A DNA stretch of 64,000 nucleotides, taken from positions 1 to 64,000 of the IMG/VR virus record IMGVR_UViG_3300025767_001103. One strand, given 5' to 3'. The stretch's first letter is position 1. Every line of letters starts with the position of its first letter. Shown here in pieces: positions 1,760 to 60,733 of the stretch. Under the pieces are notes generated by a model. It did no database searches. It was given only the letters and a program-made list of their open reading frames with translations, and had not been told where the DNA came from. Both the position numbers and the translations under genes were made by a program. This DNA comes from a virus.

Positions 1760-2605
1760 CTATTTTTTATCAGAAAAGGCCGATGCACTTGCTTCTTCAT
1801 TGCGTTTGACACTTGCTTCCCATTCGCCCTGATTTTGTCTTGTAAAACTAGGATTTAAGTCATTCATTTCAAGAATATCGTCTCGAATGTTTTGATTACG
1901 CTTTTCAATGTTGATAACACGCACAAAACTGTTAGTAACTGCGGCTGTGTAATATGCAAACGGGTTTTGTGATTTACTTTCGTCAAATTGCAAGCCAATT
2001 TGTGAAAGTTGTAGGATTGCTTGGCCTTTCATTTCGTCATTGTAGGTGTATCCACGTACATTCCCACGAGTAGCATAGCGATCAACAAGTTTTAGCCACA
2101 TCATAGCAAGATTATTAGTTGCCTTGCCGTGATCCTTGCTAAAACAGCCATTTTCCATACCGCCTTGCCAGTGCGATTTACCTACACATACCAATTCGTC
2201 TTGTTCATTAAATTTATAATGAACAAAAGGAGGAAAATTAAGTTTTGTTTTTGTATCTGCTACAGTTTTAGGATTCTTTTTACGTCCAGGCTCTTCAGGA
2301 ATATGATCAAATGTCATCACTCGAAAAATTAATTCTTCCTTAGTAATATCAGTATATTTTACTTCGCAATCTGCTTGTTTTACTTTCTCTCCTGCTATTT
2401 TACGTCTTTCGTATTCTTCAGTAGACAATCTTTTTGCTTTGTTTCGTTTGGCTTCGGCAATAGTTCTAATATTAATTTTATCTACATCTAATAAAATAAT
2501 ATCAAAATCAGCATACTCAGGTGCTACATAGCTGTTAAATGTATTTTTTGATCTATGTATTTCTTTAAGTATATCTCTATTGTTTAGATAATTTCTTTTT
2601 CTCAT
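1760..2605 (-). CDS. 55: Late-transcription sigma factor gp55
   Basis: T4 gp55 is a small, divergent sigma70-family factor that directs RNA polymerase to TATAAATA late promoters. The recognisable core is the C-terminal half: a stretch around NNLAMMWLKLVDRYA, then YTYNDEMKGQAI, then SKSQNPFAYYT and FVRVINIEKRNQNI, the family's sigma region 2-like signature. At 281 residues it is longer than T4 gp55 (185), because of an N-terminal extension of about 130 residues that I do not recognise. A TGGAG precedes the ATG at a good distance. Several TAAATA-core elements in this window are its likely targets, and one overlaps this gene's own promoter. Confidence 0.85.
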   Translation of the reverse strand: MRKRNYLNNRDILKEIHRSKNTFNSYVAPEYADFDIILLDVDKINIRTIAEAKRNKAKRLSTEEYERRKIAGEKVKQADCEVKYTDITKEELIFRVMTFDHIPEEPGRKKNPKTVADTKTKLNFPPFVHYKFNEQDELVCVGKSHWQGGMENGCFSKDHGKATNNLAMMWLKLVDRYATRGNVRGYTYNDEMKGQAILQLSQIGLQFDESKSQNPFAYYTAAVTNSFVRVINIEKRNQNIRDDILEMNDLNPSFTRQNQGEWEASVKRNEEASASAFSDKK

Positions 2606-2636
2606 TGTTTGGCTCCAGATTCCAGTTGTTATACTT

Positions 2637-2665
2637 ATTATAAACTACTAAGTTAATTTTGTCAA
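2637..2665 (-). promoter_or_regulatory. Consensus sigma70-type promoter for gene 55
   Basis: On the minus strand a perfect TTGACA (2660-2665) and a perfect TATAAT (2637-2642) are separated by 17 bases, upstream of gene 55. The -35 hexamer touches the divergent TAAATA late motif at 2665-2675, so early and late machinery would compete for or share this short gap. Confidence 0.8.
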
Positions 2666-2675
2666 CTAAATACTA
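2665..2675 (+). promoter_or_regulatory. Putative gp55-dependent late promoter before the baseplate block
   Basis: ACTAAATACTA, with its TAAATA core at 2667-2672, lies about 20 bases before the first baseplate gene. It resembles the T4 late promoter TATAAATA, and the same core recurs in other short gaps of the virion block. Activity is inferred. Confidence 0.6.
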
Positions 2676-2692
2676 GTGGAGATTAGTGAATT

Positions 2693-3433
2693 ATGACAAC
2701 AGCATATGGATACAGTAATAGCGGAGTTGGCAAACAAAATAGAATGGCACAAAATGCTGATCAAAATGTTGGGCCAAATGCAGCGCCTCAACAACAGCAG
2801 TTAGTTAGTGCAAGAGTTGGTCAAAATGCAAGAGAAAATGAAACACATGATTGGCGTGTAACACTTAGTGTTCCTACACAACTTGGCGGATCAAATATTT
2901 TTTCTCCTTTTGAAGCCGCTGGAAACAAATTAATATTTCCTTTTAATCCTACTATCTTGTTAGGCAGTAGTGCAAGTTATTCTTCAATACATCCTGTACA
3001 TACCAACCACCCTTTTTATGCATACGAAAATAGCCAAATTGATAATATAACAATTACAGGAGAGTTTATTCAAGAAAATGAAAGAGATGCAAAATATTGG
3101 GTAGCAGTTCTGCATTATTTTAGAACTATGACAAAAATGTTTTATGGTGAAAGCAATCCCGTTGGTAATCCGCCATTAGTTGCTAGATTAAACGGCTATG
3201 GAAAACATGTATTAAATAATATCCCTGTTGTTATTACAAACTTTACTACAGATTTACCACAAGATGTAGACTATATTGAATGTATAGTAAACGACGAAAT
3301 TAATTATGTACCGACCCAAAGCACATTTACAGTAACAGTACAGCCGCAATATGCAAGACGTTCACAATCAAGATTTAGTTTAAACAATTATATTAATGGA
3401 ACACATATTAATTCACCGGAAGGATTTGTATAA
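2693..3433 (+). CDS. Baseplate tail-tube cap/junction protein, gp48-like
   Basis: This 246-residue protein opens the plus-strand virion block and is followed, with a TAATG overlap, by gp53. A Gln/Asn-rich N-terminus of about 50 residues leads into a beta-rich domain. The segment WVAVLHYFRTMTKMFYGES resembles the helical IYQYFNYFSYGE stretch of T4 gp48, and the end has the IECIVNDE...TFTVTVQPQY pattern of tail-tube-like folds. I therefore prefer gp48 to gp54, although a general tail-tube initiator role is possible. It would join the hub to the tail tube. The start is the ATG at 2693; the upstream GGAG spacing is slightly long at 11 bases. The late motif at 2665-2675 probably drives it. Confidence 0.6.
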   Translation: MTTAYGYSNSGVGKQNRMAQNADQNVGPNAAPQQQQLVSARVGQNARENETHDWRVTLSVPTQLGGSNIFSPFEAAGNKLIFPFNPTILLGSSASYSSIHPVHTNHPFYAYENSQIDNITITGEFIQENERDAKYWVAVLHYFRTMTKMFYGESNPVGNPPLVARLNGYGKHVLNNIPVVITNFTTDLPQDVDYIECIVNDEINYVPTQSTFTVTVQPQYARRSQSRFSLNNYINGTHINSPEGFV

Positions 3434-3729
3434 TGAAAAATCCACTAAGTCCATACGCAAATACAAAAATTAATGCCGCAGGATATCTTGATATTTTTGT
3501 TCCTAGGCCCATTCCAGTTGCAGGTGATGACGTAATTTACGAAATACGTCCAGCATATAACCGCAGACCGGATTTATTAGCGTATGATCTCTACGATCAA
3601 AAAGAATTATGGTGGGTATTTGCTCAAAGAAATCCAGATATTATAAAAGATCCTATATTTGATTTTACAACTGGTACAAAAATTTATCTTCCTCAAGGAT
3701 CAGCACTTAGAGAAAAACTGGGGTACTAA
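3433..3729 (+). CDS. 53: Baseplate wedge protein gp53
   Basis: This 98-residue protein matches the T4 gp53 family across its length. The signature is a Tyr-rich stretch followed by RRPDLLAYDLYDQKELWWVF and then NPDIIKDPIFDF, ending in a short LysM-like beta/Pro turn (KIYLPQ). In T4, gp53 joins neighbouring wedges around the hub. T4 gp53 is about twice as long, so this is the compact form that seems usual in marine T4-like phages. Its ATG overlaps the gp48-like stop (TAATG), and its own stop overlaps the next ATG in the same way, which suggests translational coupling through three genes. Confidence 0.8.
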   Translation: MKNPLSPYANTKINAAGYLDIFVPRPIPVAGDDVIYEIRPAYNRRPDLLAYDLYDQKELWWVFAQRNPDIIKDPIFDFTTGTKIYLPQGSALREKLGY

Positions 3730-14100: not shown

Positions 14101-14701
14101 AAGTAATGACGAACTATATAGATCATTTGGATCTAAACTTAATGCAATTAAGTCTATAAGTGATGAAATAATATATCATCCTACACAGTATAAAATATTA
14201 TTTGGTAGCAAAGCAAATTCTGATTTGCAAGTAACTTTTAAAATTGTAAAAAATAGCGAATTAGTTACAAACAATAATGAACTCAAAGCTGATATTATTA
14301 GTGCTATTGATAAATTCTTTGCACTTGAAAATTGGGACTTTGGCGAAACGTTTTACTTCCAAGAATTAAGTACATATGTGTTATCTCAATTAAGACCAAA
14401 ATTAGTTAGCTTTTTGATGGTACCTAAACAAGAAACACAGTCATTCGGTAGTTTGTTTCAAATCAAATCAGAACCAAACGAAATATTAATCAGTGGTGCA
14501 ACAGTTAATGATATTCAAATCATTGACGAAATTACCGCAGCATCTCTTCAGGCATCAGGAAATGTTATCCAATCGTCTGATAATACAAATTATACGGAAA
14601 TAAAAAGCAGTGCAAGTACTGGAACTACATATTCAACTACAAATACATCAACAGGTGCCAGTAGTTCAACAAATTCAACAGGTGGAGGCTATAGCTACTA
14701 A
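11186..14701 (+). CDS. 6: Baseplate wedge protein gp6 (baseplate J-like)
   Basis: A 1171-residue protein with the T4 gp6 N-terminal signature: DFQSYDFDNLRRTMINYLR, then SSEFLALIDMISYLGQNLSF, then DLNARENFLETAERRESILR and ARMLAYNPRRNQP. In T4, gp6 forms the inner ring of the baseplate and joins neighbouring wedges. It is almost twice the length of T4 gp6 (660 residues), with extra beta-rich sequence in the middle (about 540-900). The baseplate J-like C-terminal part (FGSKANSDLQVTFKIVKN, then DIISAIDKFFALENWDFGE) is near 1010-1060, followed by a Ser/Thr/Gly-rich tail. The stop overlaps the next ATG (TAATG), coupling it to the giant gene. Confidence 0.88.
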   Translation: MSSTDRQSRLLVAEDWKRIYQTFRNVDFQSYDFDNLRRTMINYLRQNYPEDFNDYIESSEFLALIDMISYLGQNLSFRIDLNARENFLETAERRESILRLARMLAYNPRRNQPANGLLKISTVKTTETIFDSNGINLANTVIKWNDQSNTNYFEQFIKLLNAALPVQNTIGNPLKTATISDVVTQQYRFNSINTKQALYPFTKRIEGSTTRFEVVSSDIQNQTIVEEPPLPGNSPAFLFRDDGQGAASTNTGFFMHFRQGKLEEGAFNISNPTPNQAVSIDSTNINDSDVWLYSVDDAGVELSNWTKIDSVEGNNIIYNNLFQGIKDVFAVSTRVGDRISLIFSDGVFGNLPSGNFKTYYRTSANKSMVVSPSAIGKVDIEIRYQGRNGNRETLTLGLELKYTVANSNTSESNDEIRTNAPATYYTQNRLITGEDYNIGPLAISQDIIKTKSTNRISAGISRYFDLKDTSGKYSNTDLFSTDGIIYKEEFIEKTKFSFNTQSDIEGIINNTVENILSTTYMRNFYLDKFPRNIVSDLNISWKAATTATNNFTGTLTDIDDVVVAVGSFTANSLKFVEAGSLVKFVAPTGSYFDANNNIVVGTPVKKNTKSYIWTKIISVQDDGKLIDENGFGAITINDNVPTGALLQEIVPKFSRALTDDIKAQLIDQTFNYNDYALRYDATARQWKLVLAENINISNAFAVGKTGDVSGQNLDASWLLNFKTDGQTYEITYRNLRFVFESDTQIKFFFDSADKVYDTNTGKTYRDKIDILNINNKQGSTDSFTRDFTWSIQDAYRDAEGYVDTKKIIVTYLDSDDDGVVDDPELFSILVDYSNEEIDSEDKIIFQKRYYTTDGVESYKYFPNESNTVLIVANESAIAPYSARTEGQVFYLLEEKVFKILNKSLNNTSLNIDYKAYEGRANLKFHYSHVADSNYRIDPAVSNIIDTFVLTKSYDVQLRRWLKEENTIKPLPPSNDELYRSFGSKLNAIKSISDEIIYHPTQYKILFGSKANSDLQVTFKIVKNSELVTNNNELKADIISAIDKFFALENWDFGETFYFQELSTYVLSQLRPKLVSFLMVPKQETQSFGSLFQIKSEPNEILISGATVNDIQIIDEITAASLQASGNVIQSSDNTNYTEIKSSASTGTTYSTTNTSTGASSSTNSTGGGYSY

Positions 14702-17700
14702 TGGCTAATAATGATCAAAACGAAACCAATCAAGGTAACAGTAAAGTTACTAGTAGTGATTTTCTTCCTAAGTTTTTTAGAACCACAGCAAACCAAAAGT
14801 TTTTACAAGCAACGCTAGACCAGTTAATACAACCGGGCGAAGCAGAAAAAATTGAAGGTTATTTTGGTAGAAAGACTGCTAAAGCATATACAACTAATGA
14901 TAATTACATTTCTGACGTATCTGATGATAGAGAAAATTATCAACTAGAGCCTGCTCTAATTTCTAAAGACGAGTTTAATAATGTTACTTTTTATAAAGAC
15001 TACAATGATTATATTAACCAATTAAAAGTATTTGGCGCTGACACTAGAGATCATAGTATATTAAATAGTCAAGAATTTTATAGTTGGAACCCAAATATTG
15101 ATTGGGATAAGTTTGTAAACTTTCGTGAATATTACTGGTTGCCAAACGGTCCTCAAACAGTAAATGTTAGAGGACAAGCAAGGTCAGTAACTAGCACGTA
15201 TACAGTAACACTAGAAGATCAAGGTGACAATAAAGCATATGTGTTTAACGATGGATTAACAAGAAATCCTACACTTAAACTTTATAGAGGACAAACATAT
15301 AGATTTGAAGTAGATGTTCCAGGACATCCGGTTGCATTTGCTATTAGTAGAACATTTACACCAGGTACAGCGATTCTTGTTGCAGGTTCTGAAGGCATTA
15401 GGTCTAATGGAATATATGACGGAACATTGTATGATGAAGTTGATGCTAATTATGATTTAGGAGATTTTGTTGTTCTTCCTAGCGGTGGCAGTGTGTCTTT
15501 TGATGAAGACGAAAATGTAAGCACAATTTATTCAGACGGCATTCGCAAGTTAGGCGAAGAAGGCGAAGAAGTTGCTACGGTATATCTTGAAAAAGGCGTT
15601 ATAGAATTTACAATTCCAGACAACGCACCTGATAGATTATACTACATCAGTAAAAATAATATTGATACTAGTGGATATGTTAGAATAGCTGATATTGAAG
15701 AAAATACATTCTTAGATATTGCCGCAGAAATTATTGGTAAAAAGAATTATACAAGTGCAAATGGTGTTGAACTATCTAATGGAATGAAAATTAGATTCCA
15801 AGGCGATGTTACACCTGCAATATATAACACTAATGATTGGTATGTAGAAGGCGTCGGAGATAAAATTAAATTAATCAAAGATGTTGACTTAATTATTCCA
15901 GCAGTATATTCAGATAAAGTATTAGTTCCGTTTGGAACAGATGCATTTGATACACTTCCTTTTAGTGATGCTACAAGTTATGCAGCGAATAAAGATTATC
16001 TTGTTATTAACCGTTCAAGTCCTGACAAAAATGCATGGAGTCGTTATAATAAATGGTTCCATAGAACTGTAATTCGAGCAAGTGCTACATATAATAACAC
16101 TGAATTATCTCTTGATGAAGCATCGCGAGCAAAGCGTCCAATTATTGAATTTGAAGCTGGTTTAAAACTAAACAAATACGGAAGTTTTGCAAAGCAAGAT
16201 GTTGACTTAATTGATACTGTTACTGTTGATGCATTTTCAAATATACAAGGACAAATTGGATACAGAGTAGATGGTACCAACTTAGCAGAAAATATGAGAG
16301 TGCTGTTTACAGCAGATACTGACATATTAGTTAATGGTAAAATTTATCTTGTTAAGTTCATTACCATTGGTAATAAAAGACAAATTAATTTGGTCGAAGC
16401 TGAAGATACTAATCCAAATGTTTTAGAAACTGTGTTAGTTACTCAAGGTGTTAAAAATGCTGGTAAAAGTTACTATTATGACGGTACGTCTTGGAAATTA
16501 GGACAAGAAAAAACAAAATTAAACCAGCCACCATTATTTGAAGTATTTGATATTGATAAAAATAGTTTTAGTGATTCTACAGCATATAGTGCAACAACAT
16601 TTGCTGGCACAAAATTGTTTAGTTATAGAGAAGGTGCTGGAACAATTGATGCTGAATTAGGATTTCCATTATCATATAGGAATATCAATAACAGTGGCGA
16701 CATTGTGTTTGATTTTAATTTATTAACTGATAAATTTTCTTATGAACTAGGAACAGATTATTATAATAAATCAATCAATCCAGGCTTTATTAAAAAATAT
16801 AAAAATTTAACCGAGTTTGAGTGGACCAATGGTCTAACAAACAAGCCTAAAAAGAGTATACAAAAAGTACTACGTCAGTATGATGTAACAGAAGACGAGT
16901 TACAAACTTTTGAAATAGACGTGTATAGCGAAGCCGGCACGCTCACTGATATAGTTGTTAATGTATTTGTTAATAATAAGCTAACAAAAGATTATGTGTT
17001 AGACAGAACTAATAAAAAATTATTAGTAGTATTTAATAATGAACTAAAAGAAAATGACATTGTTCTTATCAAAACAAAAACATCTCAAGCAAAGAAAAAT
17101 GTTAATGGGTATTATGAATTTCCGATTAACTTTGAACGTAATCCAAAAAACGAAGACTTTAGTGAATTTACACTAGGTGAAGTTATTGATCATGTCGACA
17201 CAATGATTGAGGATTTACAAGATTTTTCGGGCGAATATCCTGGAAAAAGCAATCTTAGAGATTTAGGAGATGTTGATAATTACGGAAAGCGTTTTGTTAA
17301 GCATAGCGGATCTATCAACTTATCTGCTTATCATATTACTAACAAAAAATATAATCTAGTTAAGTCATTAGATTATAGCAGAAGAGAATATGCTAGATTT
17401 AAAAGAAACTTTTTAGACGCAGCAGTAAACTTAGGAGTAGAAACTGAAACTAAGCAGCATGTTGATTTAATATTACAAGATTTAAATAAAGACAAATTAA
17501 AAACCGAACCGTTTTATTTTAGTGATGCACTTGGATACCAATCTGCTAACATTATAGAATATGAAATCTTAGATGTTCGTACAAAAAGTTATGCATTATC
17601 TCAAGAATTTAATCTTTCAGAATTGTCAACTAGAAGTGTAAATGTCTATATAAATGGAACACAACTAATCCATGGTGTCGATTACAATTTTAATAATGTT

Positions 17701-20700
17701 GGATTTGTAGATATTTTTGCTGACTTTATTAAAGAAGGTGACAACCTAACAGTTTATGAATATTCAACTACAGATGGTACATTTATACCACCAACACCTA
17801 GTAAGTTAGGATTGTATCCTGCTTATGCACCTGAAATAACGTATGACGATACTTTTAGGCCAGCGCCTGAAAATGTTCCAGTTGACGGAACTGCTTATAA
17901 AATTTATGCACAATCAGAAGAAGGATTTAATGCAGAAGGTAAAATAGGCTGGTTCTATCCTTTATATACAACTATAGCCGCTGCAAAAGCAGCAGATATT
18001 GATGCTGGAGGAACCGGCGCTGCACATCAACATATGTTTAAAGGATCTAATATAATTCTTTACATGCCAACTGTTGGTGCAAACCATGCAACTATTGACA
18101 CTACAATTTACGATGAATATCCAATTGGGCAAGCAATGGTAAGAGGACATGACGGAAGTTATGTTAGATGTTATCAAGATTTTAGAGATAATCTATTAGT
18201 TGAATTAGAAAAACGTTTATTTAATAATATTAAAGTTACTTACAATTCAGATATTTTTAACGTTCATAAATTTATAGGCGGCGAGTATAGAAATAGTGAT
18301 TATACTAGAGAAGAAGTCAATAGTAGTTTATTAAGGACATTTGCAGATTGGCTGTCAATCATTGATAATGATTACACAGATAATTATTTTTATCTTAGAC
18401 AAGACGAGTTTACGTTTAATTACAACTCGATGAAATCTACAAATGGCAATACTCTTCCTGGATTTTGGAGAGGCATATATCAAAATGCATTTGATACTGA
18501 CAGACCTCATACACATCCTTGGGAAATGCTAGGATTTACTGTAAAACCGAGTTGGTGGAATGAAGTATATGGTCCTGCTCCTTATACTGGAGATAACTTA
18601 CTGTTATGGGAAGATTTAGAACAAGGCAAAATTGCCGAACCTGGAAACATAAGATATAATAATAATTATGTTCGTCCTGGATTAACTAATCATATACCTG
18701 TAGACAGTTTAGGCTTTTTAAAAAGTCCACTAAGATCAAATTTTCTTGATAACTTTGAATTAAGATCAACAAGTAACAATTTTAGTTTTGGTGACTGGGC
18801 TCCTGTTGAAAATGCATGGCGCCGCAGTGCAGAATATCCATTTGCTGTATTAACTTCGATGGTACTTAATAAACCTGCCGAAACAATTGGCATTGGCTTT
18901 GATATTAGTAGAATACAAAAGAATTTTGCAAATCAATATATCTATAATCCTACTAGTAAAGTACTTCAAATAGAAGAATTGCTTTTACCTAATACAGTTC
19001 AGTCTTCACAGCGTGTAATGACAGCAGGCTTAGTAAACTATGTTTCTAATTTAATTTCGAGTAATGTATTAAAGGTATATGAAGATTACAAAACAGAACT
19101 AAAATCGTTATCTAATCAATTAGGATTGAAGATTGCTGGTTTTACAGATAAAGATAAAGTAAATGTGATACTAGACAGTAGAAGCATTGTTGAAGATCAA
19201 AGTCAAGACGGCGTTTTTGTTCCAGCAGAAAATTATGATGTGTTTTTAAACACAAGTTCTCCAACTGATTTAATTACTTACAGTGGCATTGTTGTAGAAA
19301 AATTAGCTAACGGGTTTGTTGTAAGGGGCTACAGTAAAAATAATCCATATTTTGATTATTATGAACCTAGTGCATCTGCTAAGTCGCCTGTAATAACTGT
19401 AGGCGGCGTTAGTGAAGTAACTACAGAGTGGCAGTCTAATACTCCATACCTTAAAGGACAAGTAATTGATAATGCAGGAAAGTATTTTAGAGTTAATACT
19501 TCATTTACTACCGGAACTACCTTTACTAGAGAAAATCTATCTCAGCTATCATCATTGCCAGTAGTTGGCGGCAAAAGCGCTGAGTTTAAAAAGAATTTTA
19601 ACAAACAACAAATTCTTAGAGTACCGTATGGCCACAGATTTTCAACAAGTCAAGAAGTTGTTTCTTTCATGCTTGGATACAACGAAAGATTAAAAGACTT
19701 AGGATTTAATTTTAATAATACACAAGACGGATCACAAATTGATGATTGGAATGATGCTGCTAAAGAATTTTTATTCTGGACAACACAGGGCTGGGCAAGC
19801 GGCACTGTACTATCTTTAAGTCCTAGTGCCAACAGATTGCAGTTTGATAAACCGTATCATGTTGTCGACGACTTATCTGACCCGTTTTATGGATATTCGA
19901 TACTTGATGAAAATGCAAACCCTTTAGATCTTAAGTTTAACAGTATGTTAAGAGATCAAAACAGTTTTGGTATCGAAGTTGTTAATACAGATCACGGTCT
20001 TTATCATGTAGCATTGCCAGTAGTCCAAAAAGAACATGTTTTATTGTTTGATAACAAGACAGTATTTAATGATATCATTTATCAACCATCAACTGGTTAT
20101 AGACAAGAAAGATTAAAAATTAATGCATATAGAACAGACAATTGGCAAGGCGGATTTAATGTTCCTGGGTTTATTTTTGATGATGCAAAATATACTGCTT
20201 GGAAAGAATATCAAGATTATCAAATTGGAGACATGGTAAAACATAGACAATATTATTATGTTGCTACTCAAAATATTGTTGGTAGTTCTAATTTTAATAG
20301 CAATGTTTGGTTTAGACTAAGTGAAGAACCTGAAAAGAAATTATTAACAAACTTTGATTATAGAATTAATCAATTTATGGACTTCTATGATTTAGATAGC
20401 GCAGGTTTCGATAAGTCACAGCAAGAATTAGCACAGCATTTGATCGGATATCAAAAGAGACAATATCTTGCTAATATTATAAATGATGATGTCAGCCAAT
20501 TTAAATTTTACAATGGATTTATTCAAGATAAAGGCACTATGAACGCAGTTACTAAACTGTTTGATTCATTATCAGATAACGAAGAAGATAAGATACAACT
20601 ATATGAAGAATGGGCAGTACAACTTGGTAGATACGGATCTACAGAAAACGAAAAACAACTTGAATACAAATTAACAGACAAGAAGTTAGAAGAAGCACCA

Positions 20701-23700
20701 CAAATATTTGAACTTACAAATACTGTTCCAACAGATATTGACAAAATTTATAGAATATATCCTAGTGATGTATTTGATAAACCTGATACTTATATACATA
20801 CTTCTGCATTTCCTGAAACTGTTCCACAAGAATATCTTAAAACAGGCGGCTATGTAAATCCTGACGATGTTACGTTTACTGCATACGACAAGTATGAATT
20901 ACTTGATGCTGATGTAAATAAAATTGAATTAGGGTCATATATTTGGTTAATTGAAACAGGAAATGATGATTGGAATGTTTACCAATTAATTGATACCAAA
21001 GTAGTAGCAACAGCATTAGTAGTTGACACTGGTAGATTTAGTGATAAGGGCGAACCTATTAATGAATTAACTATAAACAAGTGGGCAAAAAATAACATCG
21101 AAGCGGGCGACTTGTTTGGAGTTATCGGAGCAGGCGCTGTTGGACTAGACGGAATTTATGAAGTTGAAAGCACGGATCTAAATAAAGTTTATTTTATAAA
21201 TGAACAAATAAGCACCACAGCGTTCTCAGACAAAGAGCTTGCTATAGTAAAACTAAGATCAGTAAGAATAAAATCACAAAGTGGTGCAGTTACACAAGAT
21301 ATAAACAATTTACTTACCGGCACACAGTATAAAGATCAACGTATATGGGTTGATGATTATGCACCGGGATGGTCGGTATTTGAAAACAATCCAGTTTATT
21401 CTCAGAGACAGGTAATAACTAATCCTAGCGATTGGGATAGTTCGGACCAAGAATTTGGCAATGTAATGGCTTCGAGTGCTGATAATAGAACACTAGTAGT
21501 TGCTGCACCAAACGATGAAAATGGCAAAATTAATATATATGTGAGAAGTAGAGAAAGTAACAACTTTGTTATTAATCAAGAAATTAGATTTACTAATGAT
21601 TCGTTATTTGATATTACAGGATCAAGATTTGGAGAAAGTGTTGACATATCTCCAGATGGAGAATATATTGTAGTTGGTGTACCAAATGCATCTAATGTAA
21701 AAACAAAACTTACTGGAGAATTTGATCCAACTGTAACATATACAAAGGGAGATATTGTTAAATTTAGAGAAAGTTTATGGCAGGCTTTGAGAACTATTAA
21801 TCCAGAAACTGGATCGAAAACATTTTCAACATTTGATAACTATCAAAATTTAATATCGACTGAAGACGTAGATTCAACAGATACTACATTGTTAGTATCA
21901 GGAGATCCAGGATTAGAAAACAATTTTGTTGATCACATATTAGTACGTGCTCCACAAGATATGTACCTAGGTACAAAGGGAAGAGACTTTACTCAAACTA
22001 GAGAAAGCGGCGAGTTTGCTGGAGATACAGTTAACTTATATTGGCAAGAACGTAGTTATGCTAACCCTACTCTAGACACATACCAACCCTTTGACAATGC
22101 CTACCCGCAAATTAATCAAGCATGGCTAAGTAGCTCACATGAAATTATATATAAAGTTGATTATATTCTACAAGTGCAAACATTTATTTCGCTTCCTGAA
22201 GTTGGAGATTTTGTAACTACTACAACAGGTAGAGCCGAAGTAGTTTATGCTGCAAGATCCGGCGATAGTGCAGTAATTTACGTTAAAGATACAAACGGTA
22301 CAATAGCAATTACTGGTGAATTGTTTATTGACGACAAAGATTTTGTTGGTTTATATACTTTAGAAAATACATATTCAACAAGTAACGCAGTAGGCGGATA
22401 TTGGTTAATTAAGACATACAATACTACACAGGCACCATTATCTACATGGACGGCAGAAGAATCTGATGCAAATGGATTTGTTTACGATAATAAGACTACA
22501 TGGTATGATGTTGGCCGCGGTCTTGTTTATGCAGATGTTAGATTAGCTGAAAGTTCACGTGATCTCAATGTGTATTATAATGTTCAAGATACTGTTGCTG
22601 ATATTGGTACATATGTATTAAACAAAAATAATACAAGTTTTATAACACAACTTTCGTATAGAGGTGATCCCGGAGATATCGAAGCATTCCAGCCATCTAA
22701 CAAATGGCTTGCACGAGTTGGTAAAGAATTTTCAGATACATTAATCGGAAATGAAACATTTAATTTCCGAGTATATGATACTACAAGATTTGTTGATTAT
22801 AGTAATGCTTTCCTTGCAAGTGAATTAATTAATAAGTCTCAAACTATTATTGATATGTGGGATGGTTATATTGATTTTAAATTTACTCGATTTGATGCAT
22901 CAGGAAATGTATTTGAACCTGCAATAGGAGATGTATTAGTAGATGTGCAAACACCTAGTGACGGCTCAGGCGGCCTTGCAGCCAGTAGTTTGGATGCTAC
23001 TAGTGCAGCAGAAGTTGTGTTTTATCAGCGTAATTTTAACAGTGTTAGAGTTTACGTAAAGTTATTAACTTCTTATAATGGTGTTACATATAGCGGAAAA
23101 TTTGAAGAAGCTAATAACATTGGTAGATATGAAATCAAACGTCTTGCTAACGAAAGCGAAAGAGGCACAGGTGATGTTGATAGAATTATTGGACAGGTTG
23201 ACGATTCTGATAATCAAATAGCAGTAGGTACTTCAAAAGTAGGAAAATTATTAGTATTTGAAAACTCAGTTGATTTTCAAAACACTAACTTAACTTGGGA
23301 CAACACTCCTGCGTTAATTGATGAAGAGTATTATTTCTTTAACGAAACTATCGAAAGTGGAATAAAAAAGGAATCAAATCCTCCATATAGTTTAAATAAA
23401 GATTATCGACAGTTATATAATCTTCCAACAGATCCAACTGGCACAGCTAGTGGTAATTTAGACGAAGGCGCTATAGTAATATATAGAAGACAGACCGACA
23501 ACACTTATGTATTACAAAAAACTCTTGCAAGTATTAATAGTACAGCTGATAGAAAGTTTGGATCTAAGATAAGAATAGTGCAATCTAACAAATACTTTAC
23601 TTTATTAGTTGGTACTAGAGGTGTTGATGCAGCAAGTGAAACAATTAATACAGGGCGCAGAGAACATCCAGGCGAAATTGAAATTTTCCGTAACGGAGTT

Positions 23701-26700
23701 ATTGATGCAGAAAATGTTAGTGGCTTCCAACTAAGGGCATATACTACTGACGAAGTTGTTATTTACAAAGACGAATACTACAAAGCTATACGACCAGTAG
23801 TGTCAGGAGTATTCCCAACTGATCCAGTTTACTGGAATAATATAAGTTGGAGATATGGTAAAGATATTAATTATCTCGGAACCTGGGACAATACATATAG
23901 TTACGCAGAAGATAACATTGTATTAAAAGATGGATTGTTGTATAAAGCAAAAACTAATATTGCTGAAGATGCAGAATTTACTGTTACTGATTGGACCTTA
24001 CTTGATTCTAAAGTAGATTATTTAGGTTATATTCCAAACCTTACAGTCCAAAAATTATATGATGAAGCAGTATTTGATCCTGGTAATATTGCAGACTTTA
24101 GTCAAACATTTGATATAAGTGCTGACGGACAAGTTATAATTGTAAAAGCAAATCTTATATCCACAGATAGTACTACACAAAAACGAATAGTAGTTTATAG
24201 AGAAGCAGATGACAAATATCAAGTATCGCAGATAATTGAATCGCCGAACGATACTACTTCGTGGGGAGAAAATATAAGCCTAACACCAAAAGGCGATAAA
24301 TTTGCTATCAGTGCATCACTTAATGACCAGAATGGTATTGATAGTGGCATAGTTTATGTTTATAAACAAGTAAACGGTATATTTGTATTAGATCAAACTA
24401 TAACTTCACCACAGAATGAAATTGCAGAACAATTTGGTTATGCATTAGACTTTGGCGACAATAATCTAGTAATTTCAAGTTTAAATGGCGATCAAAAAAT
24501 TCCAACAACTTTTGACAGCCAAGAAACAACGTTTGATAATAATTTTACTGAATTTAGAAATATCAAACTCGACAAAGGTGTTGTATATGTTTACGAAAAT
24601 AGAGAAGCTGGCGCACTTTATAGCGAGCAAATAATTTATCCTTCAGTTCAAGCAACATTTGGTGAAAATTTGTATACTTTTGGCAATCACATTTATGTTG
24701 GTATACCGCAACAATCATCCGGAGTATGGGATTCAGATGGCGGATCTAACAATGTTGGAGCATTAGACGGATACAGAGGTCAAGTAGTTGACTTTAGAAA
24801 AAATGTTGATACAGCTGGGTGGAAAGAAATTGATGCACAAGTATTGCCAGTTGATGTTGATAAGATTTCTGGAGTAACACTTTATAACAGTAGAACAAAT
24901 GAATTTATTACACGTTTAGACTATATTGATCCATTGCAAGGAAAAATTGCTGGTGCAGCAGAACAAGAAATTGACTATAAAGCAGGTTTTGATCCAGCAG
25001 TTTATAATACTGGATTAGTAAATGACTTCCTTGTAGATCCTGATAGATATTGGGGTAAAGAACATGTAGGCGAAATATGGTGGGCCACTGATTCTGCTAG
25101 ATTTACATATCCTTATAGAGGTTCAACTAATGATCAAAAACGTGATTGGAATAAACTAATCCGTGGATCGAGTATTGATATTTTTGAATGGGTAGAAAGT
25201 GATTACATTCCTCAAGTATGGGATGATCTTGCCGATACAGATAACGGGTTACGTCTAGGAATAAGCGGCCAAAGTGTTTATGGTAATACACGTTATTCAA
25301 CACAGTTAACATATGACAACATTGGACAAACGTTCCGTGCAAAATATTATTTCTGGGTTTTAGGCAAGCGCACCAAACCAACTGATTACAAACCTAAAAG
25401 AAAACTTAATACTATTGACATTGCTAATCTAATTGAAGATCCTAGATTACAAGGTTATAAATTTGTTAGTTTTATTAGTAAGAATAAATTTATTCTAAAT
25501 AATTGTAACGACTTAATCCAAGGCGATGATGTTGTAATACAAATTAGATATAAACAAGATCTTGAAAATAATATTAATAGACACAATGAATATCAAATAG
25601 TAAGCGAAGGTTTAGAAACTAGTACAATACACCCTGATATTGAACGCAAGTGGTATGATAGTTTAATTGGGTTTGATACTAATCTTAGACCTGTTCCTGA
25701 CACAGCTATTCCATCAAATAAAAGGTATGGAGTTCAAAACAGACCAAGACAGGGAATGTTTAAAAATCGCTTTGAAGCACTAAAACAGACTATTGAGCGT
25801 GTGAATATTAGATTAGCAAGTGAGTTGTTAATTGATAGCTACGATTTATCAGATTTGCTATCAAAAGAAGCTCCGCCTACAAGTGTATCTAGTCAGTACG
25901 ATGTTGCAATAGCATCGTACGACGAATTGCGTTTTGTAAGTACAAATAAAATAGTGCAAGCTGATATTGATTTAATTATTAGTAATGGTAGAATTATTAG
26001 TGCTAATATTATTAATCCGGGCAGGGGATATAAAGTTGCACCATCATATCAGCTTGAGGGAGAAGGAAGCGGCGCAATAATTAACTTTACTATTAATAAT
26101 TTAGGACAAATTACTAGTGTTAATATTGATAATGCCGGTTCAGGATATTTAGACTCAACAAGATTAATTATAAGACCGTTTAGTGTTTTAGTTAATGCAG
26201 ACTCTAATGTTTTTGGCAAATGGGCAGTATATAGCTGGAACGGAACTAAATGGTTTATTAGTAGCATTCAAGATTATGATGTAACAAATTATTGGGAATA
26301 CCAAGACTGGTATGCAGATGAATTTAACCAATTTACTACTATCAATTACACAATAAAGGGAACATATTTACTTCCTTCACTTGATGCAAATGTAGGTGAT
26401 ATTATTAAGGTCGATTCTACTGGTTCCGGAGGCTGGATATTACTTCAACGTACATCTACAATTGTAGGCGATGATTACACTCAAAGTCATAAAGTAGTTG
26501 GCAGACAAAACGGTACAATACAGTTTAAAGAAAGTTTATATAACTACAGCACAAATGCAGTAGGGTTTGATAATAGATCTTTTGATAGTTATTTTTATGA
26601 TAATAATCCAGTTAGAGAACTAAGAATCATATTACAAACTCTTAGAGATAAGCTACTGATAGGTACGCTAAAATCAGAATATAATAATTTATTCTTTGTT

Positions 26701-29700
26701 GGCGTAAGATATGCAATGGCCGAACAGCCTGGCATTGACTGGATCTTTAAAACTAGTTTTGTTAAGGCAAAATATAATGTAAGCGAATTAAGAAATGACG
26801 TAACATTTAACAGTGATAATTTACAAAGTTTTGAAGATTACTTAAAAGAAGTAAAACCGTATAAAACTAAGATCAGAGAATATATTAATGTTTATAATAA
26901 AGTTGAACCTACAAATACAAGTGTAACTGATTTCGATTTACCGCCGTATTACAGCATAAGTGATGGTGGTATTATTCCTAATCAGGCAGTGTTTAGTTCA
27001 GGCACTATTATTAATAGTACTAACGAATTTGAAACATATCCTAAAAAACATTATATTGACAATGTTGGATACGAATTAACTGAAATTAAAATTAAAGACG
27101 GCGGCAGCGGCTATACGTTTGAACCTAAGATTACTATTGTAGGAAATGCAACTAGACCTGCAACAGCTAAAGCCTACCTTGGTTATGGTAAAATTACTTC
27201 AATAAAAATTACCGATCCTGGAAAAGGTTATCTTACAACGCCTGCGGTTGTTATTGAAGGGTCTCAAAATGAAAATGCTACTCCTGCAAAGCTAAGTGCT
27301 ATATTAGGAAATAGTCCAATTCGAACTGCACACATGCGTGTTAAGTTTGATAGAATAAACAAGTCAGTGTTTATTGAAGAACTACTAGAAACGCAGACAT
27401 TTAGTGGCACCGGTGCAAAATCAGTATTTAATTTAGAATGGCCAATGGATTTAGACCGTAAAAAAGTTAAAATTACGATAGACGGTGTTGAAATGCTCCG
27501 TAGTACATATACCTATAAGAATATTGAAAATAATGATAAAACTTACTCGCGCCAGCAAGGACAAATTACATTTGTAGAATCTCCTAAACTAAATGCAGTA
27601 ATTTCTGTGGAGTATTATAAGCCAATAGATATGTTAATGGCAACTGACAGAATTCATCATTTTTATGAACCAGTAACTGGAATGTTAGGTAAAGATTTTG
27701 CACAGCTAATGAAAGGCATTGACTATGGCGGAGTTGAAGTTAAATCAATTGATTTCTCAGGTCCATCAGGATGGGATACTGTTGGCTGGTACACCGATAC
27801 ATGGGATACATTTGATACTACATATGAAGACGAAGTATTCACAGCAGATGGAAGTACAATCTTTGTTGAGCTAAGTAAGCCTTTAGAAAATAACGTTACA
27901 TATAATGTTTATTTAGGAACATCAGGTAGTGTTAATTTAACAAGAATTGATGATGTTAATTATGGTACAGATCAACAAGTTAATCAAGATGCTATTATAA
28001 GCAGTATTATTGGCGATGGTGTAACTACTGTTATTGATTTAGATGATTTGGGCATTGCATTTGGAGACGGTGATACACTAATTATAAGAAAAACTACTAG
28101 TGATGGTAGTATTGTTCCAGATCCTACTAGTTATGATACACAATTAAGTGGCGGCGATTTACCATATACAACTGCTAAAGGGGTAAATGCCGAAGATATT
28201 ATAGTTGACGGCGACGGATTTGTAAATCCAATTACACATGCAGGTCCAGAAGAACTAATTCCTGGATTAGTTACTGATGCACTTGACATTAAAGTCTATA
28301 CAAGAGACTCGTCAGGCAATGGAGTAATATACAGCCAAAGTTATACAACAGATGGGATAGCCACTAAGTTCTCATTAGGTACAACACCTTCGACTAAAGA
28401 TGCAGTTTTAGTTAAAGTAGATGACATATTAGTCGAAGATACTACATACAATATTAATTGGAACACAAACGAATTAACATTCAATGTAGCACCTGCAGCC
28501 AATCAAGAACTAAACATTATTAGTCAATCTATTGGCACACAAAGTTTATTAGATTACGGAAAATATACTACAGACGGATCTACAACTGAAGTTATAACAA
28601 CTGTTGATTGGATTAATGGTGCTAGTGTAAGTGCTAGTGTTGACGGCGAAGTATTAGATACGGTAGTATTTAATAGTAACGAAGAAGGATACGACTTACC
28701 AAATGCAAAAGTTGGTATTAGATTCCCTGAAACATTGTTAGAAGGCAGAGTAGTACATTATGCAGTATTCAGTGATGATACAGTTGTAAATTATAGTAGA
28801 ATTATTACTAATAATTTTACTGGCAACGGCATCCAAACAGCATTTGTATTAGAGGATGTACCATTTACAGCAATTCCGTTAGAACATAAAATTATGGTAA
28901 AGGTTGGAAATAAGATTCTTAACCCTGGATATAATATTAAATTTACTATTCCAGAAAATAATCAAAGAACGTATAAGTTCGAAACGTTCCAGCAGTCAAT
29001 TGGTAGCTTAGATGTTGAAGAATTAAAAGTATACTTAAACGGTGTTGAAATCCAATCACCTGTTGAATGGCGTTATGATGTTGCTAATGCAACAATCTTA
29101 TTAACTGATGATACTGGTGCTCCGGGAGACACTGTTGAAATATTTGCTATTGCAGATGGTGAATATGCGTTTGGATATTTAAACAGCGAAGGTGTATGGA
29201 TAGATACTCCGGGAACATTGTATTTTGATACTGCACCTGCACTAAATGAAAAAATAGAAATATTACAATTTAGTAATCATGACATTCTTGGTATTGAACG
29301 AATTAATTATGATGTAGTTAATAGAAGTTCAACAGATGTACCAAGTGAACTTAAAACATATAGATTGTTAAAATCTGGAACTATTACATTACGTAATCCA
29401 GCAGTTGATGCGCAGTATGTTTGGGTAAGTAAGAATGGAGAATTGTTAACACCGAGTGTAGATTATTATGTAACAGATGATAGACAGCAAATTAAACTAA
29501 CTGTTCGTCCTAGTGATAATGATGTAATAGATGTGTTACATTTTACAGCGCCAGTTGGTATTCCTAAATTTGCATACAGACAATTTAAAGATATGCTTAA
29601 TAGAACACACTTCAAGCGTCTTGATAAAGCAGAAGTTAGATTACGCCAAGCACTTAACTATTATGATTTGCGTATTGAAGTTGATAATGGAGCACTTCTT

Positions 29701-30258
29701 GCAGAACCTAACAAAGGCCAAAATATGCCTGGTATAGTATTCATCAACGGTGAACGTATAGAGTATTTTGTTAAAGAAGAAAATACACTGCGTCAGTTAC
29801 GTCGAGGAACACTTGGAACCGGAGTTAAAGATATACATGAAATAGGGTCAAAAGTTTATGATCAAAATATAAGCAAAACTGTTCCGTATCAAGATATTAC
29901 AGTAAGTAAGTCGTTTGTTGCAGACGGCGTTGCTGTTGACTTCGAACCCGGCTTTACAATAGACAATATTAATGAAGTTGAAGTGTTCGTTGCTGGTACA
30001 AGAATGCGCAAAGCAGCAATTCAAGTATTTGATCCTACTCTAGCACTTGACAGTACCGACGGAGATGTAACTTCTGATGCAGAATTTACAGTTGATAATA
30101 ATATAGTAACATTAGCAACTGCACCTGCTGATAATGTACAAGTAATGATAGTAAAGAAAACAGGAGCACTTTGGAGCAACCTTGGAACCCAGTTAGCACA
30201 GACAGAAAATTCAATTGCAAGATTCTTACGTGCAGGCACAAGTGAGTTACCAGAATAA
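14701..30258 (+). CDS. Giant (5185-residue) baseplate/tail structural protein in the gp7 position
   Basis: This gene fills about a quarter of the window. Residues 1-160 (SSDFLPKFFRTTANQKFL, then FYSWNPNIDWDKFVNFREYYW) look like a wedge-anchoring head. A cupredoxin-like domain lies at about 165-330 (LKLYRGQTYRFEVDVPGHPV, ending NAPDRLYYISKNN). Short W/Y modules resembling CBM5/12 (YxxGDxVxxxxxYYxAxxxxxxxxxxW) recur near 1582, 1837, 2340, 3013 and 3060. FG-GAP/propeller-like blocks (FGESVDISPDGEYIVVGVPN) lie near 2250-2335 and 3130-3345. Paired GxGY motifs occur near 3760-3825 and 4120-4190. Repeated TDG...F.L beta modules fill 4380-5185. T4 gp7 has 1032 residues. The gene order fits gp7; homology beyond the N-terminus is uncertain. 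It may combine wedge and host-binding roles. Confidence 0.7.
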   Translation: MANNDQNETNQGNSKVTSSDFLPKFFRTTANQKFLQATLDQLIQPGEAEKIEGYFGRKTAKAYTTNDNYISDVSDDRENYQLEPALISKDEFNNVTFYKDYNDYINQLKVFGADTRDHSILNSQEFYSWNPNIDWDKFVNFREYYWLPNGPQTVNVRGQARSVTSTYTVTLEDQGDNKAYVFNDGLTRNPTLKLYRGQTYRFEVDVPGHPVAFAISRTFTPGTAILVAGSEGIRSNGIYDGTLYDEVDANYDLGDFVVLPSGGSVSFDEDENVSTIYSDGIRKLGEEGEEVATVYLEKGVIEFTIPDNAPDRLYYISKNNIDTSGYVRIADIEENTFLDIAAEIIGKKNYTSANGVELSNGMKIRFQGDVTPAIYNTNDWYVEGVGDKIKLIKDVDLIIPAVYSDKVLVPFGTDAFDTLPFSDATSYAANKDYLVINRSSPDKNAWSRYNKWFHRTVIRASATYNNTELSLDEASRAKRPIIEFEAGLKLNKYGSFAKQDVDLIDTVTVDAFSNIQGQIGYRVDGTNLAENMRVLFTADTDILVNGKIYLVKFITIGNKRQINLVEAEDTNPNVLETVLVTQGVKNAGKSYYYDGTSWKLGQEKTKLNQPPLFEVFDIDKNSFSDSTAYSATTFAGTKLFSYREGAGTIDAELGFPLSYRNINNSGDIVFDFNLLTDKFSYELGTDYYNKSINPGFIKKYKNLTEFEWTNGLTNKPKKSIQKVLRQYDVTEDELQTFEIDVYSEAGTLTDIVVNVFVNNKLTKDYVLDRTNKKLLVVFNNELKENDIVLIKTKTSQAKKNVNGYYEFPINFERNPKNEDFSEFTLGEVIDHVDTMIEDLQDFSGEYPGKSNLRDLGDVDNYGKRFVKHSGSINLSAYHITNKKYNLVKSLDYSRREYARFKRNFLDAAVNLGVETETKQHVDLILQDLNKDKLKTEPFYFSDALGYQSANIIEYEILDVRTKSYALSQEFNLSELSTRSVNVYINGTQLIHGVDYNFNNVGFVDIFADFIKEGDNLTVYEYSTTDGTFIPPTPSKLGLYPAYAPEITYDDTFRPAPENVPVDGTAYKIYAQSEEGFNAEGKIGWFYPLYTTIAAAKAADIDAGGTGAAHQHMFKGSNIILYMPTVGANHATIDTTIYDEYPIGQAMVRGHDGSYVRCYQDFRDNLLVELEKRLFNNIKVTYNSDIFNVHKFIGGEYRNSDYTREEVNSSLLRTFADWLSIIDNDYTDNYFYLRQDEFTFNYNSMKSTNGNTLPGFWRGIYQNAFDTDRPHTHPWEMLGFTVKPSWWNEVYGPAPYTGDNLLLWEDLEQGKIAEPGNIRYNNNYVRPGLTNHIPVDSLGFLKSPLRSNFLDNFELRSTSNNFSFGDWAPVENAWRRSAEYPFAVLTSMVLNKPAETIGIGFDISRIQKNFANQYIYNPTSKVLQIEELLLPNTVQSSQRVMTAGLVNYVSNLISSNVLKVYEDYKTELKSLSNQLGLKIAGFTDKDKVNVILDSRSIVEDQSQDGVFVPAENYDVFLNTSSPTDLITYSGIVVEKLANGFVVRGYSKNNPYFDYYEPSASAKSPVITVGGVSEVTTEWQSNTPYLKGQVIDNAGKYFRVNTSFTTGTTFTRENLSQLSSLPVVGGKSAEFKKNFNKQQILRVPYGHRFSTSQEVVSFMLGYNERLKDLGFNFNNTQDGSQIDDWNDAAKEFLFWTTQGWASGTVLSLSPSANRLQFDKPYHVVDDLSDPFYGYSILDENANPLDLKFNSMLRDQNSFGIEVVNTDHGLYHVALPVVQKEHVLLFDNKTVFNDIIYQPSTGYRQERLKINAYRTDNWQGGFNVPGFIFDDAKYTAWKEYQDYQIGDMVKHRQYYYVATQNIVGSSNFNSNVWFRLSEEPEKKLLTNFDYRINQFMDFYDLDSAGFDKSQQELAQHLIGYQKRQYLANIINDDVSQFKFYNGFIQDKGTMNAVTKLFDSLSDNEEDKIQLYEEWAVQLGRYGSTENEKQLEYKLTDKKLEEAPQIFELTNTVPTDIDKIYRIYPSDVFDKPDTYIHTSAFPETVPQEYLKTGGYVNPDDVTFTAYDKYELLDADVNKIELGSYIWLIETGNDDWNVYQLIDTKVVATALVVDTGRFSDKGEPINELTINKWAKNNIEAGDLFGVIGAGAVGLDGIYEVESTDLNKVYFINEQISTTAFSDKELAIVKLRSVRIKSQSGAVTQDINNLLTGTQYKDQRIWVDDYAPGWSVFENNPVYSQRQVITNPSDWDSSDQEFGNVMASSADNRTLVVAAPNDENGKINIYVRSRESNNFVINQEIRFTNDSLFDITGSRFGESVDISPDGEYIVVGVPNASNVKTKLTGEFDPTVTYTKGDIVKFRESLWQALRTINPETGSKTFSTFDNYQNLISTEDVDSTDTTLLVSGDPGLENNFVDHILVRAPQDMYLGTKGRDFTQTRESGEFAGDTVNLYWQERSYANPTLDTYQPFDNAYPQINQAWLSSSHEIIYKVDYILQVQTFISLPEVGDFVTTTTGRAEVVYAARSGDSAVIYVKDTNGTIAITGELFIDDKDFVGLYTLENTYSTSNAVGGYWLIKTYNTTQAPLSTWTAEESDANGFVYDNKTTWYDVGRGLVYADVRLAESSRDLNVYYNVQDTVADIGTYVLNKNNTSFITQLSYRGDPGDIEAFQPSNKWLARVGKEFSDTLIGNETFNFRVYDTTRFVDYSNAFLASELINKSQTIIDMWDGYIDFKFTRFDASGNVFEPAIGDVLVDVQTPSDGSGGLAASSLDATSAAEVVFYQRNFNSVRVYVKLLTSYNGVTYSGKFEEANNIGRYEIKRLANESERGTGDVDRIIGQVDDSDNQIAVGTSKVGKLLVFENSVDFQNTNLTWDNTPALIDEEYYFFNETIESGIKKESNPPYSLNKDYRQLYNLPTDPTGTASGNLDEGAIVIYRRQTDNTYVLQKTLASINSTADRKFGSKIRIVQSNKYFTLLVGTRGVDAASETINTGRREHPGEIEIFRNGVIDAENVSGFQLRAYTTDEVVIYKDEYYKAIRPVVSGVFPTDPVYWNNISWRYGKDINYLGTWDNTYSYAEDNIVLKDGLLYKAKTNIAEDAEFTVTDWTLLDSKVDYLGYIPNLTVQKLYDEAVFDPGNIADFSQTFDISADGQVIIVKANLISTDSTTQKRIVVYREADDKYQVSQIIESPNDTTSWGENISLTPKGDKFAISASLNDQNGIDSGIVYVYKQVNGIFVLDQTITSPQNEIAEQFGYALDFGDNNLVISSLNGDQKIPTTFDSQETTFDNNFTEFRNIKLDKGVVYVYENREAGALYSEQIIYPSVQATFGENLYTFGNHIYVGIPQQSSGVWDSDGGSNNVGALDGYRGQVVDFRKNVDTAGWKEIDAQVLPVDVDKISGVTLYNSRTNEFITRLDYIDPLQGKIAGAAEQEIDYKAGFDPAVYNTGLVNDFLVDPDRYWGKEHVGEIWWATDSARFTYPYRGSTNDQKRDWNKLIRGSSIDIFEWVESDYIPQVWDDLADTDNGLRLGISGQSVYGNTRYSTQLTYDNIGQTFRAKYYFWVLGKRTKPTDYKPKRKLNTIDIANLIEDPRLQGYKFVSFISKNKFILNNCNDLIQGDDVVIQIRYKQDLENNINRHNEYQIVSEGLETSTIHPDIERKWYDSLIGFDTNLRPVPDTAIPSNKRYGVQNRPRQGMFKNRFEALKQTIERVNIRLASELLIDSYDLSDLLSKEAPPTSVSSQYDVAIASYDELRFVSTNKIVQADIDLIISNGRIISANIINPGRGYKVAPSYQLEGEGSGAIINFTINNLGQITSVNIDNAGSGYLDSTRLIIRPFSVLVNADSNVFGKWAVYSWNGTKWFISSIQDYDVTNYWEYQDWYADEFNQFTTINYTIKGTYLLPSLDANVGDIIKVDSTGSGGWILLQRTSTIVGDDYTQSHKVVGRQNGTIQFKESLYNYSTNAVGFDNRSFDSYFYDNNPVRELRIILQTLRDKLLIGTLKSEYNNLFFVGVRYAMAEQPGIDWIFKTSFVKAKYNVSELRNDVTFNSDNLQSFEDYLKEVKPYKTKIREYINVYNKVEPTNTSVTDFDLPPYYSISDGGIIPNQAVFSSGTIINSTNEFETYPKKHYIDNVGYELTEIKIKDGGSGYTFEPKITIVGNATRPATAKAYLGYGKITSIKITDPGKGYLTTPAVVIEGSQNENATPAKLSAILGNSPIRTAHMRVKFDRINKSVFIEELLETQTFSGTGAKSVFNLEWPMDLDRKKVKITIDGVEMLRSTYTYKNIENNDKTYSRQQGQITFVESPKLNAVISVEYYKPIDMLMATDRIHHFYEPVTGMLGKDFAQLMKGIDYGGVEVKSIDFSGPSGWDTVGWYTDTWDTFDTTYEDEVFTADGSTIFVELSKPLENNVTYNVYLGTSGSVNLTRIDDVNYGTDQQVNQDAIISSIIGDGVTTVIDLDDLGIAFGDGDTLIIRKTTSDGSIVPDPTSYDTQLSGGDLPYTTAKGVNAEDIIVDGDGFVNPITHAGPEELIPGLVTDALDIKVYTRDSSGNGVIYSQSYTTDGIATKFSLGTTPSTKDAVLVKVDDILVEDTTYNINWNTNELTFNVAPAANQELNIISQSIGTQSLLDYGKYTTDGSTTEVITTVDWINGASVSASVDGEVLDTVVFNSNEEGYDLPNAKVGIRFPETLLEGRVVHYAVFSDDTVVNYSRIITNNFTGNGIQTAFVLEDVPFTAIPLEHKIMVKVGNKILNPGYNIKFTIPENNQRTYKFETFQQSIGSLDVEELKVYLNGVEIQSPVEWRYDVANATILLTDDTGAPGDTVEIFAIADGEYAFGYLNSEGVWIDTPGTLYFDTAPALNEKIEILQFSNHDILGIERINYDVVNRSSTDVPSELKTYRLLKSGTITLRNPAVDAQYVWVSKNGELLTPSVDYYVTDDRQQIKLTVRPSDNDVIDVLHFTAPVGIPKFAYRQFKDMLNRTHFKRLDKAEVRLRQALNYYDLRIEVDNGALLAEPNKGQNMPGIVFINGERIEYFVKEENTLRQLRRGTLGTGVKDIHEIGSKVYDQNISKTVPYQDITVSKSFVADGVAVDFEPGFTIDNINEVEVFVAGTRMRKAAIQVFDPTLALDSTDGDVTSDAEFTVDNNIVTLATAPADNVQVMIVKKTGALWSNLGTQLAQTENSIARFLRAGTSELPE

Positions 30259-43728: not shown

Positions 43729-43758
43729 TTACTAAATAGTATTATATGCTAGTATAAT
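43729..43758 (+). promoter_or_regulatory. Composite promoter region before the 2OG oxygenase gene
   Basis: TTACTA (43729-43734) and a perfect TATAAT (43753-43758) are 18 bases apart. Between them ACTAAATAGT (43731-43740) has the late TAAATA core. Both early and late initiation are possible. A start near 43765 would exclude the ATG at 43757, supporting the TTG start at 43778. Confidence 0.5.
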
Positions 43759-60723: not shown

Positions 60724-60733
60724 ACTAAATATC
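60724..60733 (+). promoter_or_regulatory. Late-type motif in the divergent gap
   Basis: ACTAAATATC, with its TAAATA core at 60726-60731. A TATAAT follows at 60735-60740 without a good -35. AGGA at 60754-60757 and the ATG at 60764 follow. The 54-base gap separates the PP-loop operon from the hydroxylase gene. Confidence 0.45.

Follow-up and report, generated by a model that had tools for sequence, protein, structure and literature searches.

Organization of the junction between gene 55 and the baseplate block

The window, a 64,000-nucleotide stretch of viral DNA (positions 1 to 64,000 of IMG/VR record IMGVR_UViG_3300025767_001103), carries gene 55 on the minus strand (1760..2605), back to back with a block of structural genes on the plus strand. 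The gene 55 product, gp55, is a late sigma factor of 281 aa; it matches PHROG 12791, annotated as a sigma factor for late transcription, at E 2e-79, and the late sigma family PHROG 234 at E 3e-22. The first gene of the late block (2693..3433) encodes a virion structural protein (PHROG 12050; E 2.5e-35), and is followed by a gene for a gp53-like baseplate wedge subunit (3433..3729; PHROG 7145; E 4e-25), the orthologue of which is annotated as baseplate wedge in RaK2, 121Q and Atu_ph07, and as 'Base plate wedge protein 53' in a Vibrio record. The PHROG matches back the gene names 'gp55' and 'baseplate', which had been assigned in an initial annotation of this DNA.

The intergenic stretch between the two divergent genes spans only 87 bp (2606-2692). 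Reading into gene 55 on the minus strand, there is a perfect sigma70-type match 32 nt before the gp55 start: the -35 hexamer TTGACA (2660..2665, read 2665-2660) is separated by a 17-nt spacer from the -10 hexamer TATAAT (2637..2642, read 2642-2637), and transcription is predicted to start at ~2630. The 64-kb window has just one other perfect match; sites with ≤2 mismatches number 39 in it versus 22.8 expected, a count reached in 0/100 shuffles. Reading the opposite way, the octamer ACTAAATA (2665..2672, plus strand), which includes the heptamer CTAAATA (2666-2672), presents a putative late promoter with a predicted start at ~2678. It lies 20 nt before the virion structural gene, the RBS of which, GGAG, occupies 2678..2681; the baseplate genes then follow.

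The two elements are in direct contact. The sequence from 2660 to 2675 reads TGTCAACTAAATACTA: the -35 box of the gp55 promoter abuts the late heptamer with a gap of 0, and base 2665 is common to the -35 hexamer and the late octamer. Moreover, the base pair at 2666 is used on both strands, as C at -12 of the late promoter and as G at -36 of the early one. On standard spacings, the two predicted starts (2630, minus; 2678, plus) are 48 bp apart. Both the perfect gene 55 promoter (TTGACA-17-TATAAT at 2665-2637) and its contact with a plus-strand element of late type had been described in the initial annotation, and our analysis confirms them; absent from that account was the observation that the window's box is one base off the phage's own late consensus, having C for A at -12.

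Elsewhere in the window, a gp47-like gene (687-1703, minus) has its own near-perfect early-type promoter, TTGACA-17-TATACT, at 1731-1759; its -35 box lies immediately next to the stop codon of gp55, and AG precedes TTGACA, as it does at gp55. The structural region also contains a 5185-aa ORF (14701-30258, plus), in which only a carbohydrate-binding module (CBM_5_12) was recognised.

Assignment of the late promoter

T4-type late promoters consist of an octamer resembling TATAAATA, which extends from -13 to -6. The longer T4 11-mer provided no support for the assignment: ACTAAATACTA by itself was not enriched and, allowing two mismatches, TATAAATACTA was matched 83 times versus 83 expected, such that its enrichment, showing no excess over chance, was dropped as evidence. 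The late box instead gains its meaning from the position of NTAAATA before genes, the enrichment of ATAAATA, and the invariance of the box in relatives. A search for enriched 7-mers, unbiased by any prior motif, was conducted on three genomes, namely G000, the 85,750-bp record to which the window belongs, and two others related to it (151,964 bp, and 120,000 bp read). In all three, ATAAATA was the most enriched 7-mer in the interval 12-45 nt before gene starts (P 1.7e-11, 6e-21 and 1e-13), and heptamers of the class NTAAATA lie mostly 16-27 nt before plus-strand gene starts. The flanks of the group's late box are little conserved, except for G/A at -13.

Additionally, PA5oct-like and enterobacterial jumbo phages have GATAAATA/ATAAATA at the orthologous position before the orthologous structural gene, and ATAAATA has previously been predicted as the late promoter of phage CBB (PMC5259590). 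It is this orthology, together with the unbiased signal before genes, that underlies the late assignment. The box ACTAAATA itself has one mismatch to the group consensus, and the heptamer CTAAATA is scarce elsewhere in the group; we place the box at 2666 in the late class, as a putative promoter with C at -12. The variant is plausible as a promoter here, as it is identical to the late consensus predicted for Aeromonas phage Aeh1 (CTAAATA; PMC1524935). We also considered whether TATTTAG, the same box read on the minus strand, is a mere upstream part of early promoters, and rejected this, because the group's other early promoters differ there and are often A-rich.

Two further CTAAATA boxes occur on the plus strand of the window (43732-43738 and 60725-60731, the latter in a divergent gap), 17-18 nt before listed ORF starts. 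A Pfam search for the sliding clamp (PF02916) found no match, and control genomes were equally without one.

Conservation of the fused junction

Two sets of relatives were compared. In the first, fetched by the gp55 protein and comprising 79 sequences with the window included, the gap of 0, the 17-nt spacer and CTAAATA/ACTAAATA are present in 79/79; the -35 box is TTGACA in 72 and TTGACT in the other 7, and the -10 box is TATAAT in 72/79. The second was fetched by a distant gp55 protein, not by the junction, and has some contigs in common with the first: here, 76 of 79 members have the gap of 0 and ACTAAATA, with gp55 sequences 59-87% identical to that of the window. Among 42 dereplicated blocks, twelve consecutive columns are invariant (GTCAACTAAATA), the columns outside the promoter block being near random, and the distance to the gp55 start varies across relatives while the gap stays fixed. 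An invariant TAA in the early spacer was entertained as a third binding site and dropped, as more distant fused relatives are without it.

Each genome searched has a single exact copy of GTCAACTAAATA, and the idea that the junction motif is a dispersed repeat was accordingly discarded. When a 34-nt pattern for the fused pair was searched against IMG/VR, gp55 directly adjoined it in every checkable locus among the matches listed, and those listed matches without gp55 beside them lie where the contig ends. A tree of gp55 with 126 rows places the fused state within one fully supported clade; of its 77 rows, three, in one sub-clade, are unfused, and the arrangement is present in 74 dereplicated gp55 rows. 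A gp55 search of the phage collection did not find a cultured member of the fused clade, the best match being 48%. By sequence comparison, the fused layout is firmly established in a large group of aquatic phages, and the comparison across relatives indicates that the overlap is more than coincidence.

In L073 and L075-L078, a second TTGACA-type promoter lies between gp55 and the fused junction and may represent an intermediate toward the unfused state of L299 and L346 (see below).

Spacing and gene order in the wider family

The back-to-back order of gp55 and the structural-gp53 block recurs in RaK2, 121Q, MIJ3 (PA5oct-like) and a Vibrio phage, whereas the first gene in Atu_ph07 and Phosso is nucleotidyltransferase-like; judged from these genomes, the order is older than the fusion. 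In the unfused wider family, 2-87 bp separate the boxes, and the late box reads ATAAATA, rarely GTAAATA. The gap is clade-specific: most PA5oct-like metagenomic relatives have 35 bp, the enterobacterial jumbo phages 2-4 bp and the remainder 22-87 bp. Inside the fused clade, the unfused relatives L299, L300 and L346 have gaps of 45, 87 and 36 bp, respectively. The initial annotation had proposed related phages as a check, a preserved overlap speaking for its reading and spaced elements against it; overlap holds for the ~150 loci with a gap of 0, but the sister clades and these three relatives, with their spacings of 2-87 bp, speak against universality.

For phage CBB, the gp55 promoter (with a TGAAACG -35) and the ATAAATA late motif had been predicted before, separately (PMC5259590). 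Atu_ph07 has the same GTCAACTAAATA, with no TATAAT at 17 nt and a TTGCAA-17-TATATT promoter further down; in this genome (L098; gp55 44% identical), the block in common with the window clade, TATTTAGTTGACAAATTAAC, lies at ~2908-2930 and the -10 is missing. In the PA5oct-like L104-L131 and L145-L147, the fixed 35-bp gap contains a conserved inverted repeat, ATAAA-N8-TTTAT, between the promoters, which may act as an operator or as an element upstream in the gp55 promoter. Transcript maps of PA5oct were not found in the literature searched.

The off-consensus base of the late promoter

The base at -12 of the late promoter changes with the layout. Fused rows have C throughout (149/149), and unfused rows A or G (63/64); the one remaining row, Atu_ph07, has C, and there too TTGACA lies directly against the box. 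In L299, L300 and L346, where the gp55 promoter stands further from the late box, it is A. Moreover, L299 and L346 lack GTCAA at the late box, which matches TATAAATA perfectly, and have a gp55 promoter nearer to the gene start; to judge by their sequences, both look like they retain readable remains of an old fused block. The gp55 tree by itself does not distinguish loss from gain of the fusion, and independent contrasts agree in 4/4 cases with Atu_ph07 counted as fused (p 0.125, the events being too few for significance).

A reason for the odd base is suggested by the early-type promoters of three genomes, which have G at -36 in 14/25 and T in 0/25. A consensus late box would demand T at early -36, where these promoters never have it, and thus the overlap would force an off-consensus base. 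The simplest reading of these alignments is that the overlap holds the late promoter off consensus at -12; why C is found there instead of G is not explained by it. The junction suggests that a late promoter can be locked away from its consensus when another promoter overlaps it.

Could the invariant GTCAACTAAATA primarily bind some other protein, of phage or host, with its promoter likeness secondary? The twelve invariant columns across the 42 loci would suit such a site, as would the retention of TATTTAGTTGACAAATTAAC in Atu_ph07 although it is without TATAAT at 17 nt. Nevertheless, we regard this as highly improbable: the two halves of the promoter are conserved along with GTCAACTAAATA, the -10 and the 17-nt spacer among them; the spacer conservation is lost in the distant fused relatives L301, L307 and L310; and where the early promoter stands further off, the absence of GTCAA and the perfect late box are what would be expected of two promoters and not of a third site.

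Returning to two overlapping promoters, both could be real and their overlap a product of compaction only, the short intergenic gap bringing them together; exclusion would then have no regulatory weight, host-sigma promoters being silenced late by other means. The 87-bp gap of the window fits this view, unfused relatives with gaps of 36-87 exist, and T4-like phages have other known early-to-late mechanisms. Set against it are the constancy of the gap while the distance to the gp55 start drifts, and a late promoter that is off consensus in ~150 loci yet matches TATAAATA perfectly where it stands apart from the early one, which suggests that a costly fusion has been retained in the 74 rows. On balance, we consider compaction an unlikely explanation.

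A possible early-to-late switch

With predicted starts 48 bp apart and the early -35 adjoining the -10-like late box, two polymerases would compete for one stretch of DNA, such that either would keep out the other. In the T4 system, DNA from -12 to +2 is melted in the open late complex, which has gp33 and the clamp on DNA further upstream (PMC7892883; PMC2988020); a T4-like upstream footprint of gp33 and clamp would here cover the gp55 promoter core. Mutually exclusive occupancy of the two promoters is therefore very likely on this geometry, and the proposal of the initial annotation that polymerase at the late site would exclude host sigma from the early one is a sound inference from touching cores that are kept in ~150 loci. 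Taken as a whole, the junction is probably a divergent promoter pair with overlapping cores, sigma70-type into gene 55 and gp55-type late into the structural/baseplate block, which would be mutually exclusive and switch-like.

Such a switch might work as follows. Host-sigma polymerase would first occupy the gp55 promoter, making gp55 and keeping the late promoter closed; as gp55 polymerase accumulates, the late promoter would open and the baseplate block start, and this opening would in turn lower gp55 synthesis. That the regulatory outcome of exclusion is a switch with negative feedback on gp55 is proposed with moderate confidence; on this view, gp55 may turn off its own gene. The existence of the unfused L299, L300 and L346, and of the sister clades, speaks against the switch reading insofar as the fusion is dispensable for phage viability.

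A further complication is a late-like box in the gp55 direction, ATAAGTA (2632..2638, minus), which overlaps the early -10, is in register with boxes in relatives and may be a second gp55 promoter. It could let late polymerase transcribe gp55 and, being present in about half of the fused relatives, could argue against self-shut-off. If gp55 were indeed transcribed both early and late, ATAA[A/G]TA over the early -10 would give sustained expression or positive feedback, not shut-off. Among 42 dereplicated relatives, 12 have ATAAATA and 8 have ATAAGTA (20/42 in the same register), at the usual distance of a late promoter from the gp55 start, and there is precedent in RB49 and S-PM2 (PMC2984593). 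However, the window's ATAAGTA is not enriched before genes in G000 or in a second genome (G001), the other half of the relatives are without the box, and it overlaps the AT-rich -10 sequence; we find dual early and late transcription unlikely, a little more so than compaction.

The broadest form of the switch reading, put forward tentatively and with slightly less than even confidence, is that a sigma factor's promoter and a promoter which that factor serves share core bases, forming a minimal switch that limits itself without any additional repressor and has been retained throughout a large clade of aquatic phages despite its off-consensus late promoter. To our knowledge, early-to-late pacing and the restraint of the late sigma factor are poorly known in T4-like phages other than T4; for the early-to-late change, this junction is a conserved and concrete candidate for a control point. 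It has, moreover, a natural experiment built in, as the late -12 base changes in step between fused and separated relatives.

Comparison with known systems

A literature search of open-licence papers found no earlier report of the fused junction, and a late promoter coupled to gene 55's own promoter is not reported for T4 in the review and papers examined. In common with the T4 late promoters served by gp55, gp33 and gp45, the system has a sigma factor of the gp55 family and a short -10-like octamer positioned close before late genes; the consensus differs, being ATAAATA here, with ACTAAATA at the junction. The C at -12 is common to the junction and phage Aeh1 (PMC1524935), but there it belongs to the general consensus, whereas here it hardly occurs outside the fused gp55 junction.

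For RB49 and S-PM2, an overlap of early with late promoters has been proposed (PMC2984593), and elements of the two kinds are likewise combined at one place. In those phages, however, both promoters serve the same gene, whereas here they are divergent, and the early one makes the late one's sigma factor. The A2c/A2b - A3 region of phi29 (PMC3100819) similarly switches neighbouring early and late promoters at one place, although by means of the regulators p4 and p6 with host sigma; we propose direct competition of two holoenzymes, with no known extra regulator.

A parallel in layout is provided by CBB, GAP32, RaK2 and 121Q, in which gp55 diverges from the same set of structural genes (as examined in RaK2 and 121Q) and a TATAAT-type gp55 promoter stands 2-4 bp from an ATAAATA late box; these enterobacterial jumbo phages differ in having another -35 type (TGAAACG in CBB and GAP32) and no overlap with the late box. 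In its presumed working, the fused junction resembles other competing divergent promoter pairs.
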